A stretch of DNA of 64,000 nucleotides. Source: Glycomyces lechevalierae (GTDB lineage Bacteria; Actinomycetota; Actinomycetes; Mycobacteriales; Micromonosporaceae). The notes under the pieces are model-generated. The model did not search any database and was not told the DNA's origin. It worked only from the letters and a program-made list of their open reading frames with translations. The stretch covers positions 1 through 64,000 of the forward strand of contig NZ_JAPZVQ010000011.1 in assembly GCF_027622945.1 (NCBI RefSeq). Reading direction: 5' to 3'. Positions within the stretch are counted from its first letter, which is position 1, and each line of letters begins with the position of its first letter. The position numbers and the translations under genes are program-made. Below, piece by piece: positions 7,136 through 44,421 of this stretch.

Positions 7136-7219
7136 GGCCGGGATGAGCGGCCCTGCACGCCGACCCGGTCGCTCAGCGGCCGGGATGAGCGGCACTGCAC
7201 ACCGGCCCGGTCGCTCAGC
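7136..7219. repeat. Tandem duplication of a 42-bp unit at the 3' end of the reductase gene
   Basis: Two directly adjacent 42-bp copies (7136-7177 and 7178-7219) differ at only three positions. Each contains GAGCG...CGCTC arms that can fold into a hairpin. The right copy includes the stop codon of the aldo/keto reductase gene (7215-7217). The unit may therefore act as a duplicated terminator for that gene. Confidence 0.8.
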
Positions 7220-25988: not shown

Positions 25989-26678
25989 TTACTGCTCCTT
26001 GGGGGCGGGCTGCTGGCCGTAGACGTTCTGGTAGCGGTCGTAGAGCTTGTCGATGTCCGCCTGCGGGATCGGGATCGGCTCGCCGAGCTGGCGCGAGATG
26101 TGGACGGTGCGCGCCACGTCCTCGGCCATGACGGCGGCCTTCACGGCGGCCTTCGGGTCCTTGCCGATGGTGAACACGCCGTGGTTCTGCATGATCACCG
26201 CCGGGGAGCGGTGCCCCCGCAGGGTCTCGACGATGCCCTTGCCGATGGCGTCCGAACCGATGCGCGCGAACGGGCCGAGCGGGATCTCCCCGCCGAACTC
26301 GTCGGCCATCGCCGTGATGACGCACGGGATCGGCTCGGCGCGCGCGGCCCACGCGGTCGCGTACGGGCTGTGCGTGTGGACCACGCCGCCGACCTCGGGC
26401 ATCTCCTGGTAGACCACGTTGTGGCTCTCGGCGTCCGAGGAGGGCGCCAGGTCGCCGTCGAGGATCTTGCCCTCGAGGTCGGTCACGACCATCAGCTCGG
26501 GCTTCATGTCGTCGTAGGAGACGCCGCTCGGCTTGATGACGATCAGGTCGGTGCCCGGGACACGGCCCGAGACGTTGCCGCTGGTCCAGGTCACCAGGCC
26601 CCAGCGCAGCAGCTCGGCGTGCAGGTTGCAGACCTTGACCTTCATCTCCTCGACGGCCGGAGTCGTCTTGAAGCTCAT
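25989..26678 (-). CDS. araD: L-ribulose-5-phosphate 4-epimerase
   Basis: 229 residues (E. coli 231). A class II aldolase-fold zinc enzyme that makes D-xylulose 5-phosphate from L-ribulose 5-phosphate. Visible are [27 protein letters not shown], the zinc His pair in [15 protein letters not shown], and [13 protein letters not shown] with the third His. ATG 26678 has GGAGG upstream and overlaps the araB stop codon by four bases, so the two are coupled. Confidence 0.97.
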
Positions 26679-28339
26679 TTCGTTGCCTCCGTGGCGATCT
26701 TGTGCAGAGTGTGCAGTGCGCGGGAGCCGCCGCGGCCGAAGTGGTCGTGCAGCTCCTCGTAGACGGCGTACAGCTCGTCGTAGGCGTCGGCGCGGGCCTC
26801 GTCGGGGACGTACGCGTTGCGCTCGACCTTGCCCATGGCCTCGGAGGCCGCGAAGATGTCCGGGTAGACGCCGGCCGCGACCGCGGCGTGGATCGCCGAG
26901 CCCAGAGCCGGGCCCTGGCCGGAGGTGAGCACCGTGATCGGCATGCGCAGCACGTCCGAGTAGGTCTGCATGAGCCACTTGTTCTTCAGCAGGCCGCCCG
27001 CGGCGACGAACTCGTTGATCGGGACGCCCGCCTTGACGAGGGTCTCGACGATCATGCGGGTGCCGAACGCGGTGGCCTCCACCAGCGCCCGGTAGATGTC
27101 CTCCGGCTTGGACTGCAGGCCCAGGCCGAGGATCACGCCGTGCAGGTCGTGGTCGACGAGGACGGAGCGGTTGCCCGAGTGCCAGTCGAGCGCGACCAGG
27201 CCGTGCTGGCCGACGGCCTGCCCCTCGGCGAGCTCGGTCAGGTACTCGTGGATCGAGATGCCGCGCTGCTCGGCCTCGGCGGTGTACTCGCCGGGGACGC
27301 CGTTCTTGGTGAACCACGCGAAGATGTCGCCCACGCCGGACTGGCCGGCCTCGTAGCCCCACAGGCCCTTGGTGATGCCGTCGCGAACGACGCCGCACAT
27401 GCCCGGCGCCTCGGTCAGGTTCTCGCCGTTGACGACGTGGCAGGTGCTGGTGCCCATGATGGCGACCATCTGGCCGGGGCCGACGGCCTTCGCGGAGGCG
27501 GCCGTGACGTGCGCGTCGACGTTGCCGGCGGCGATCACGGTGCCCTCGTTCAGGCCGGTCCACTCGGCGGCCTGCGCGGTGAGCACGCCGGCCTTGTCGC
27601 CCAGCGGCAGGAGCGGGTGCTCCATCTTGGCGTTGAAGTCGGCGAAGTCGGGGTTGAGCGCGGCCAGGTACTCGCGGGAGGGACGCTCGCCGTCCTGCAC
27701 GATGCCCTTGTAGCCGGCGGTGCAGGAGTTGCGGGTCTCCTCGCCGCAGAGCTGCCACACGATCCAGTCGGCGGCTTCGATCCAGCGCTCGGCGCGGTCG
27801 TAGACCTCGCGGTCCTCCTCGAGGAGCTGCAGGCCCTTGGCGTAGGCCCACTCCGAGGAGATCTTGCCGCCGTAGCGGGGCAGCCACGACTCGCCGCGCT
27901 CGGCGGCGACGGCGTTGATGCGGTCGGCCTGGCCCTGCGCGGCGTGGTGCTTCCAGAGCTTGGGCCACGCGTGCGGCCGGTCGGCGAGGTCGTCCAGCTC
28001 GCACAGCGGGGTGCCGTCGGCGGTGGTCGGGAGGATCGTGCACGCGGTGAAGTCCGTGGCGATGCCCACGACCTGGTCGGGGCTCACGCCGGCGGCGGCC
28101 ACGGCGGCGGGCACGGCGTTGCGGAGCACGTCGACCCAGTCCTTGGGCGACTGGAGGGCCCAGCTGCGGCCGAGGCGGACGCCGGAGCCCGGGAGGGCCT
28201 CCTCGATGGCGCCGTGCTCGTACACGTGCTCGGCACTGGCCAGCTCGCGGCCATCGGCGACCGACGCGACGACGACCCGGCCTGACAGGGTGCCGAAGTC
28301 GATCCCGATAGCAACGGCACCGTTGTCGCTGCCAGTCAT
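26675..28339 (-). CDS. araB: L-ribulokinase
   Basis: 554 residues. A FGGY-family kinase that phosphorylates L-ribulose. The nucleotide motif [15 protein letters not shown] opens the protein. [38 protein letters not shown] and the C-terminal [19 protein letters not shown] follow the family. AAAGGAGG lies just before the ATG. It is first of araBDA. No AraR-type regulator is adjacent. An AACG-N8-CGTT element upstream is a candidate operator. Confidence 0.97.
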
Positions 28340-28600: not shown

Positions 28601-28734
28601 GTGCACAGCACTCCGTACATCGTATTCCGTACGCCGTATCCAGTGCGCAGTACGTTGTACGCCGCACACTGTACGACGTACGAGTAATGCGCATCCGCAT
28701 CGTCTCGTACGGCGTACGCCGTACTAAGTACGAG
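28601..28734. repeat. Heptad array: tandem 7-bp GTACGNN units
   Basis: Twelve consecutive 7-base units begin at 28601 and every seventh base to 28678 (for example GTACATC, GTATTCC, GTACGCC, GTACGTT, GTACGAC). Then come 22 unlike bases (28685-28706) and four more units (28707-28734: GTACGGC, GTACGCC, GTACTAA, GTACGAG). The consensus is GTACGNN with frequent GTAT, GTGC or GCAC variants. The 3' end abuts the -35 box of the SDR promoter. Seven-base arrays are known as cyanobacterial STRR repeats and as operators of ribbon-helix-helix proteins such as the omega repressor. Which applies here is unknown. Confidence 0.85.
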
Positions 28735-28759
28735 GTTATCCGCGATCACCGCCGGGTAT
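28735..28759 (+). promoter_or_regulatory. Sigma-B/F-type promoter of the SDR gene
   Basis: GTTA (28735-28738), 15-base spacer, GGGTAT (28754-28759). It matches the GTTT-N15-GGGTAT consensus of actinobacterial SigF/SigB with one change. It sits 58 bases before the ATG, directly downstream of the heptad array. Confidence 0.65.
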
Positions 28760-28816: not shown

Positions 28817-29662
28817 ATGGGCAAGCCGGGACAGCAGCAGGAACCTCCGGGCATGACCGAGGCCATGACGCCGAAGCCCAAGGACTCCATGGAGGGGTAC
28901 GAGGGCCGCGGCCTCCTCAAGGACCGCCGGGCGCTGATCACCGGCGGCGACTCCGGGATCGGGCGGGCCGTCGCGATCGCGTTCGCCAAGGAGGGCGCCG
29001 ACGTCGCCATCGCCTACCTCGAGGAGCACGAGGACGCCGAGCGGACCGCGGAACTGGTCGAGGCCGAGCGCCGCCAGTGCGCGCTGCTCCCCGGCGACCT
29101 CGCGGACCGCGACCACTGCCGCGAGGTGGTCGACCAGACCGTCAAGGCGCTCGGCGGGCTCGACCTGCTCGTCAACAACATCGCGACCCAGACGCCGGTG
29201 GAGCGGCCCGAGGACATCAGCGACGAGCAGTGGGAGCACACGTTCAACGTGAACATGCACAGCTTCCACCGGGTGACGCGGGCGGCGCTGCCGCACATGG
29301 GCGAAGGCGACGCGATCGTCAACTGCGCCTCCGTGAACGGCCTGCGCGGCAACAAGACGCTCATCGACTACTCGGCGACGAAGGGCGCGATCATCGCCTG
29401 GACGTACTCGATGGCGCAGGCGCTCGCGCCGCGCGGCATCCGCGTCAACTGCGTCGCGCCCGGTCCCGTGTGGACGCCGCTCATTCCGTCGACACTGCCC
29501 GAGGACCATGTGGAGGGCTTCGGCTCGAACACGCCGATGGGCCGCCCGGCCGAACCGGACGAACTCGCGCCCTCGTTCGTGTTCCTGGCCTCGAACACCA
29601 TGTCGTCCTTCATCACCGGCGAGGTGATCGCGGCCCTCGGCGGCGAGACCATGCCCGGCTGA
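28817..29662 (+). CDS. Stress-type short-chain dehydrogenase/reductase
   Basis: 281 residues. A Rossmann fold with TGGDSGIG (42-49), LVNNIATQ, the catalytic Ser in NCASVNG and YSATKGA (Tyr-x3-Lys). The N-terminal extension (MGKPGQQQEPPGMTEAMTPK ending before LLKDRRALITGG) is typical of the YhxC/YghA subfamily, often induced by general stress. GGAGAGGA precedes the ATG. It has its own sigma-B/F-like promoter and a strong terminator, so it is probably monocistronic. The substrate is unknown. Confidence 0.92.
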   Translation: MGKPGQQQEPPGMTEAMTPKPKDSMEGYEGRGLLKDRRALITGGDSGIGRAVAIAFAKEGADVAIAYLEEHEDAERTAELVEAERRQCALLPGDLADRDHCREVVDQTVKALGGLDLLVNNIATQTPVERPEDISDEQWEHTFNVNMHSFHRVTRAALPHMGEGDAIVNCASVNGLRGNKTLIDYSATKGAIIAWTYSMAQALAPRGIRVNCVAPGPVWTPLIPSTLPEDHVEGFGSNTPMGRPAEPDELAPSFVFLASNTMSSFITGEVIAALGGETMPG

Positions 29663-43638: not shown

Positions 43639-44421
43639 CTATTCGGGAGCGTCCGTTCGAAGGCTGGGCCGACGTGACCAGCCGGCGCAGACGGTGTAAG
43701 TGAAGGTCGCGGCGAGGGCCATGACCGCCAGGGCCCCGAGCTGGAGCGCGTCGAGGGCCGTTGTGAAGTTGCCGACCTTCAGCGCCGCCCAGGCCGCGGC
43801 GGGGTCGAGCTCGACGAACAGCACCGACGGCGGGCGCCACATGTGGGCGCCGGCGGGCGCGCGCTCGACCGCGTCCCAGAACGCCTGCCACTCGTTCGCG
43901 CCGATCTTCCAGGCCACCACCTGGCAGCCGATCGAGCCGATGACGAGCCCGAGGAGGAGGATCGGGCCGCGCCGCCCGCGCATGGCCGTCCACGCCATGA
44001 TCGCGGCGACGATCCCGAGGACCAGGCCGATCCCGGCGAACACGAGGTCGCCTTCGACGTAGCCGCTCGGGTAGGTCTCGGTAGAGGCCCATCTGCCGCT
44101 TTCGACGATCACGAACTCCACGCGCGGGGTGAGGATCTGCCACAGCATCGCGGCGGGCAGGCCGATCGCGGTCAGGACGACGGCGAGGAACCCGGCGGCG
44201 GCGAGGTCGCGGCCGATGGTCCGCTCCGAGCGCGGGGTCCTGCCGTAGACGTTCGCGTCGTCGCGGGCGTCGGCTCGCGGCGGGTCCGCCGGAGCGACGG
44301 CCGCGCCCTCCCTGCCCGCACTGTCGTTCCGGCCGGCACTGTCGTTCCGGCCCGCGCTGTCCTCCCAGCCCGCACTGTCGCCGGGGCGGAGGTTCACGGT
44401 GCGTTCGGCGTCGTCAGTCAC
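43639..44421 (-). CDS. Four-helix membrane protein with DSAGRN repeats (DUF2567-like)
   Basis: 260 residues from GTG 44421. A hydrophilic N-terminus has about four copies of the hexapeptide DSAGRN/DSAGWE (GDSAGWEDSAGRNDSAGRND), then four membrane helices: LAAAGFLAVVLTAIGLPAAM, FAGIGLVLGIVAAIMAW, GPILLLGLVIGSIGCQVVAW and LQLGALAVMALAATFTYTVC. A polar stretch between helices 1 and 2 faces outward. The layout is that of DUF2567, found upstream of hisD in mycobacteria. Assignment by layout only. Confidence 0.65.
   Translation of the reverse strand: MTDDAERTVNLRPGDSAGWEDSAGRNDSAGRNDSAGREGAAVAPADPPRADARDDANVYGRTPRSERTIGRDLAAAGFLAVVLTAIGLPAAMLWQILTPRVEFVIVESGRWASTETYPSGYVEGDLVFAGIGLVLGIVAAIMAWTAMRGRRGPILLLGLVIGSIGCQVVAWKIGANEWQAFWDAVERAPAGAHMWRPPSVLFVELDPAAAWAALKVGNFTTALDALQLGALAVMALAATFTYTVCAGWSRRPSLRTDAPE

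Follow-up and report, generated by a model that had tools for sequence, protein, structure and literature searches.

The TetR-family protein SimR binds its 17-bp operator as a single dimer, and binding as a dimer of dimers has been described for the same family (PMC4150764). In Streptomyces antibioticus, two operators are located between the divergent genes simR and simX (PMC5812520), while SCO7222 and ActR have three palindromes each (PMC3511530). Heptamer repeats of TAACTGA are known from Beggiatoaceae, cyanobacteria and Bacteroidetes, where they are intergenic, have a period of 7 bp and are distributed patchily (PMC4679880). A literature search covering the top-ranked matches and few subscription papers revealed no description of a natural array of the kind analyzed here. 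The excerpts of PMC3261101 and PMC10269677 contained no operator sequence of use, and for GTACNNNGTAC one paper was matched, on staphylococcal phages (PMC5435737).

We analyzed a window of 64,000 nucleotides, i.e. positions 1 to 64,000 of contig C3 of the own genome G000 (C6, C8 and C15 are further contigs of it), which contains an array of heptads adjoining the promoter of a gene for an SDR family oxidoreductase. The array comprises 16 cores in 7-bp steps, and its partition into 12 and 4 units by a break of 22 bases agrees with the first-pass annotation (Table 1). Cores start at 28601, 28608 and so on up to 28678 in the first block and are found at 28707-28728 in the second. Ten cores are GTAC, and two each are GTGC, GCAC and GTAT, all six being one transition away from GTAC, while the triplets following the cores are of 12 different kinds among the 16 units. 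The annotated strict 7-base register holds within each block but not across the break, since the second block is off by one base (22 = 3 × 7 + 1). Also, the GTAC core of the annotated consensus GTACGNN is correct, but the G at the fifth position is only a preference and GTACNNN fits better. The array reached a score of 22.2, compared with at most 6.7 for the best of 300 dinucleotide shuffles. Allowing up to one mismatch, 14 two-unit matches were found, 13 of them inside the array (2.27 expected), and this number was equalled by none of 100 shuffles. Exact GTAC-N3-GTAC, with a spacing of 3, is present five times in the array (starts 28650, 28671, 28707, 28714 and 28721), and the array as a whole sequence is a single copy in the own genome. 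Cyanobacterial STRR elements are heptamer repeats of near-identical units. Repeats of this type, considered in the first-pass annotation, do not match the array because its triplets change between units, and a uniform microsatellite was rejected for the window array on the triplet count given above. Elsewhere in the window, a 42-bp duplication (7136-7219) and an 18-bp tandem repeat of 3.7 copies (44314-44380) were noticed.

Table 1. Features of the array and its surroundings (positions in the window).
Feature	Position	Strand	Basis
Ribulokinase gene araB, divergent neighbour	26675..28339	-	start 261 bp from array
Sub-array 1, 12 GTACNNN units (6 exact GTAC, 6 one-transition cores)	28601..28684		sequence, core count
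Interruption, 22 bases, register shifted by one base	28685..28706		sequence
Sub-array 2, 4 units, all cores exact GTAC	28707..28734		sequence, core count
Operator-like GTAC-TAA-GTAC adjoining the -35 box	28721..28731		putative binding site
Sigma-B-like SDR promoter GGTT-N16-GGGTAT	28734..28759	+	match to consensus; comparable site upstream of 15 of the 16 SDR orthologues of the genus
SDR family oxidoreductase, adh_short_C2	28817..29662	+	Pfam/NCBIfam matches

The promoter elements are GGTT (28734-28737) and GGGTAT (28754-28759), which fit a sigma-B-like pattern; the sigma-B consensus is GNNT-N14-16-GGGTAC/T. As had been annotated, the array extends to the -35 box of the SDR gene, with GGTT beginning at the last base of the last unit. 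The best NCBIfam match of the SDR protein was PRK06701.1 with 403.1 bits, slightly below the cut-off of 413.

For comparison with regulator genes, SimR homologues (40-56% identity, E ≤ 1e-40) were taken from 23 loci in 21 of 394 genomes of the class; the repressor encoded on C8, described below, falls under this threshold. Exact GTACN3GTAC was found upstream of 17 of the 23 homologues, and with up to one mismatch it was found upstream of 22, compared with 4 for a CATG control with the same tolerance. In other 450-bp stretches of these loci, the exact motif was present in 0/115 and the motif with up to one mismatch in 15/115. A spacing of 3 between the cores was seen at 17/23 loci and the next best spacings at 6/23, and GTAC-N3-GTAC is frequently present twice. 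Because of the upstream enrichment, the 0/115 elsewhere and the distinct spacing, GTAC-N3-GTAC is very probably the operator of the SimR-like subfamily. The four-heptad pattern was detected in 85 of 354 genomes of the family (reversed control, 6/354). Outside the genus, the motif has a SimR-like TetR gene as its neighbour at 11 of the 12 loci among the matches listed (12 of 67 matching genomes); at L149, one of these 12, such a gene was not found beside it. Within the genus, GTACN3GTACN3GTAC has 110 forward matches in 19/22 genomes, compared with 4 forward matches in 4/22 for the reversed control. A code for all TetR_C_1 proteins was rejected: in the own genome, only 2 of 13 such genes have the exact motif upstream and 7 of 13 have it with up to one mismatch, and the former count also speaks against an operator reading of the array. 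The spacing may resemble that of tetO. GTAC-N3-GTAC would provide a testable operator code for SimR-like repressors across actinomycetes and tie an odd repeat to one concrete protein family.

The repressor gene of the own genome (C8:102731-103474) encodes a protein with TetR_N and TetR_C_1 domains, whose closest solved relative by sequence is SimR (E 9.3e-29). In a fold search with its AlphaFold model (mean pLDDT 80.7), SimR chains were the top matches, with DNA-bound 3zql in first place (TM 0.67). Orthologues with at least 69% identity are present in 21/22 genomes of the genus, while the best match in G003 has 44%. The putative own operator, located between the repressor gene and a divergent glyoxalase/VOC gene (C8:102669-102707), has six in-register cores, five GTAC and one GTAT. 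In 19 aligned upstream elements of the repressor, cores reach 1.96 bits per position and spacer triplets 1.19. Of the 19 elements, 18 have GTAT as the second core, and the other cores are GTAC except for two changed ones in a single element. Three genomes are left out of the alignment, G009 because its element is interrupted, G001 because it has a longer variant run and G003 because its homologue has 44% identity, and GTAC pairs are visible in all three. Since six cores are nearly invariant and the triplets variable, the grammar of the window array is conserved at a putative TetR operator. Three more relatives of the C8 repressor (36-42% identity) are encoded in the own genome, and the one on C15 has exact GTAC-N3-GTAC upstream. 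The C8 repressor is the likely binder of the window array, with the three paralogues as further candidates. Paralogous TetR genes at L142, L144 and L145 have two GTACNNNGTAC sites 11-12 bp apart upstream, i.e. the same half-sites in another layout.

We favour the reading, which we hold evenly balanced, that the locus is a natural tandem array of overlapping SimR-type operators of which the one proximal to the -35 box may repress the SDR gene. The operator unit would be GTAC-N3-GTAC. GTAC equals its reverse complement, so that with a step of 7 bp each core could serve as the right half of one operator and the left half of the next. Since neighbouring operators would share a half-site, only every second operator would hold a dimer; the dimers would be spaced by 14 bp, with room for no more than about six on the first block and two on the second. 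A dimer on the last operator, covering about 17 bp, would abut the -35 box and impede RNA polymerase at the SDR promoter, and a ligand freeing the repressor would release the promoter. Extra units may raise local occupancy or avidity or soak up repressor, and their number may drift by gain and loss of units through slippage. As the repressor gene lies on C8 and the array on C3, outside the control region of the SimR-like gene, we call it an array of SimR-type units and not a canonical SimR operator; that no TetR gene stands beside it counts against the operator reading. This reading is well supported as to the kind of element and weakly as to its function at the SDR gene, whose control by the array we infer. 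What stands of the earlier proposal, as the best reading, is an array that is non-coding and offers several protein-binding sites next to the SDR promoter, its units matching the operators of SimR-like TetR proteins.

Among the 16 genomes of the genus with an SDR orthologue, G000 and G016 have an array at this site, G002 has two exact cores and 13 have none. In G017, G018 and G008, the araB-SDR order and the promoter are present but the array is absent, which speaks against the operator reading. Because of this absence, and because similar arrays are found at unrelated loci, the annotated cooperative platform controlling the SDR gene is weakened; both findings had been named beforehand as adverse to it, and each is partly true. 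In G000, G002 and G016, a GTACNNNGTAC pair is equally far from the SDR -35 box, although the other units are different or missing. This pair at fixed distance, seen in three related species, is the best sign of a possible local role at the SDR gene. G002 keeps the repressor and its operator, yet lacks most of the SDR array and the array at the amidohydrolase site described below, another point against the operator reading. Beside the SDR gene of G014, 420 bp (L024) show long G/C homopolymer runs and N, probably an assembly artefact.

When three heptads were searched for genome-wide with a tolerance of two mismatches, two further true arrays emerged in the own genome, namely the C8 element mentioned above and C6:115025-115187, with 7, 6 and 6 cores (changed ones counted) between genes for an alpha/beta-hydrolase and an amidohydrolase. 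At this site, 7 of the 22 genomes of the genus have an array and 15 do not, and all seven belong to one group of ten genomes. In a tree of the hydrolase, repressor and SDR proteins, this group is separated from the other twelve genomes with a support of 100 (some inner splits are weak, 47-56); a five-core array located 3' of folP in G001 (L112) lies outside the group. The arrays at the amidohydrolase site begin 4-16 bp past the hydrolase stop codon and their unit sequences are mostly unlike. Those of G014, G005 and G000 align at one end, where G014 is one 7-bp unit longer, and in G002 the site is clean and empty. Downstream of the hydrolase and upstream of the amidohydrolase, a separate palindrome closely resembling CTAGCCGNNCGGCTAG was noticed in 19/22 genomes of the genus (L175-L196), possibly the operator of another regulator. 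Further array sites are thiC/rplM (three genomes), 3' of folP (two), upstream of a histidine kinase gene (two), 3' of an alcohol dehydrogenase gene (convergent with a MerR gene), dnaJ/rsmE, 3' of a glutamate dehydrogenase gene, ROK/glucanase and OsmC/AraC (convergent). A Pfam search of the neighbours at two more array sites (L094/L102, L098) gave no family name, and the orientation of unnamed neighbours is uncertain because gene limits were taken from a simple ORF caller.

The arrays undergo fast gain, loss and unit turnover between related species, so that any effect on a neighbouring gene can only be inferred. Uniform stretches of GTACTGC, GTACGTT or GTACACC in the arrays of some relatives look like recent expansions. 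The uniform GTACACC array at L098:6014-6052 runs into a stretch of N, so this is its visible length only. For the orthologous arrays of G000 and G016, substitutions amounted to 2/48 in cores and 17/27 in spacers, although any register-true alignment pairs core with core anyway. For this reason, only close pairs are informative, and G014 and G005 gave 4/48 and 6/24 (p 0.07, not significant). We do not take this comparison as proof of selection and regard the 19 aligned repressor elements as the sounder evidence. An even-number rule, expected if each dimer takes two cores, was rejected because the result shifts with the threshold (even counts in 30/44 runs, in 13/40 with exact cores only, in 14/20 with one genome per site), and this dependence weighs against the operator reading.

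Beyond the family, a pattern scan of the whole collection gave at least 119 stretches from many phyla, and among the 119 matches listed only 3 have a SimR-like TetR gene in the locus, so most of the listed distant arrays are another matter. Among four units, 33 of the 119 listed stretches have at least three different triplets. Varied-triplet GTACNNN arrays among the matches listed come from Bacteroidota, Planctomycetota, Acidimicrobiia and further groups, and most of their loci have no SimR-like gene; Litoribacter ruber has arrays at L211, L234, L243, L245 and L268, and other taxa have further ones, including L213, L224, L252, L198 and L275. In viral contigs, five-heptad stretches numbered 29 for GTAC, 24 for CATG, 38 for TGCA, 19 for ACGT, 64 for GATC and 73 for CTAG, i.e. 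other self-complementary cores are as common there as GTAC.

A strong competing reading is a neutral or selfish expansion, which we consider possible rather than probable. Slippage and recombination would have amplified operator-like heptads, which would have reached intergenic sites that tolerate them; the repressor may bind there while no gene is usefully controlled. This agrees with arrays that occupy unrelated sites and are mainly confined to one group of ten genomes, with a position 2-16 bp past the stop codon of a named gene at 6 of about 12 sites, with two sites between convergent genes, with units that nearly all differ between species at one orthologous site, with the uniform, probably young stretches and with the clean absence in G002. 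Two observations burden the operator reading, as no promoter is expected between convergent genes (L081, L101) and the genes flanking the arrays have no common theme. Against mere expansion, the cores persist next to varied triplets: in 44 runs, selected for cores matching in 3 or more of the 4 letters, 188 of 248 cores are exact. A core pair also keeps its distance from the SDR -35 box in three species, and an element that is likely a real operator conserves this same grammar. By a wider and rather doubtful proposal, TetR-operator arrays would be a spreading regulatory repeat: born from the operator of the repressor, they would seed new intergenic sites within the clade, be resized by 7-bp units under half-site selection and put unrelated genes such as the SDR gene under or out of the control of one repressor. 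If this is true, operator arrays would be a natural means of regulon rewiring.

It is improbable that the arrays act purely as a DNA sponge, titrating the SimR-like repressor in trans and setting the induction threshold of the VOC/TetR pair with no local role. Decoy sites are a described mechanism (PMC7686491), and the two dispersed arrays offer 16 and 19 in-register cores (changed ones included) versus 6 at the operator of the repressor, but G002 and others have the same repressor without long arrays. The binder proposed in the first-pass annotation, a ribbon-helix-helix protein polymerising along the heptads, is probably wrong and as a reading very unlikely. Omega/ParG-type operators of this protein class are WATCACW heptads, so that the array shares only the 7-bp phasing, whereas its GTACNNN units are those of the SimR-like TetR operator and go with SimR-like TetR genes (11/12 loci listed and 17/23 loci); the idea was dropped once this tie was established. 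Mini-hairpins of GTAC-N3-GTAC in RNA or single-stranded DNA, with a 4-bp stem and a 3-nt loop, are scarcely credible and were rejected, since despite the self-complementary core and the 3-base spacer compensating neighbours are few (GTGC-GCAC two, ATAC-GTAT one) and most changed cores adjoin an unchanged GTAC.

Compared with the described systems, the favoured array of SimR-type operators is closest to SimR itself, whose two operators recall the frequent double occurrence of GTAC-N3-GTAC at the homologues; however, these are separate operators beside the regulator's own gene, whereas 12 and 4 cores are fused here in 7-bp steps far from the repressor gene. SCO7222, ActR, QacR and CprB likewise place several dimers on one control region, but on two or three sites beside the regulator gene instead of 16 half-sites. 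The TAACTGA repeats and STRR share the intergenic 7-bp period and, for TAACTGA, the patchy distribution, but one heptamer is repeated there, whereas only GTAC is constant here. The locus would offer a natural parallel to the operator arrays built in the laboratory, one in which cooperativity, titration and changes of the regulon via repeat number would be measurable. Like DNA sponges and the FROS arrays of the laboratory, it has many repressor sites in tandem, but those are engineered, whereas the arrays described here are natural and variable (PMC7686491, PMC5473772).
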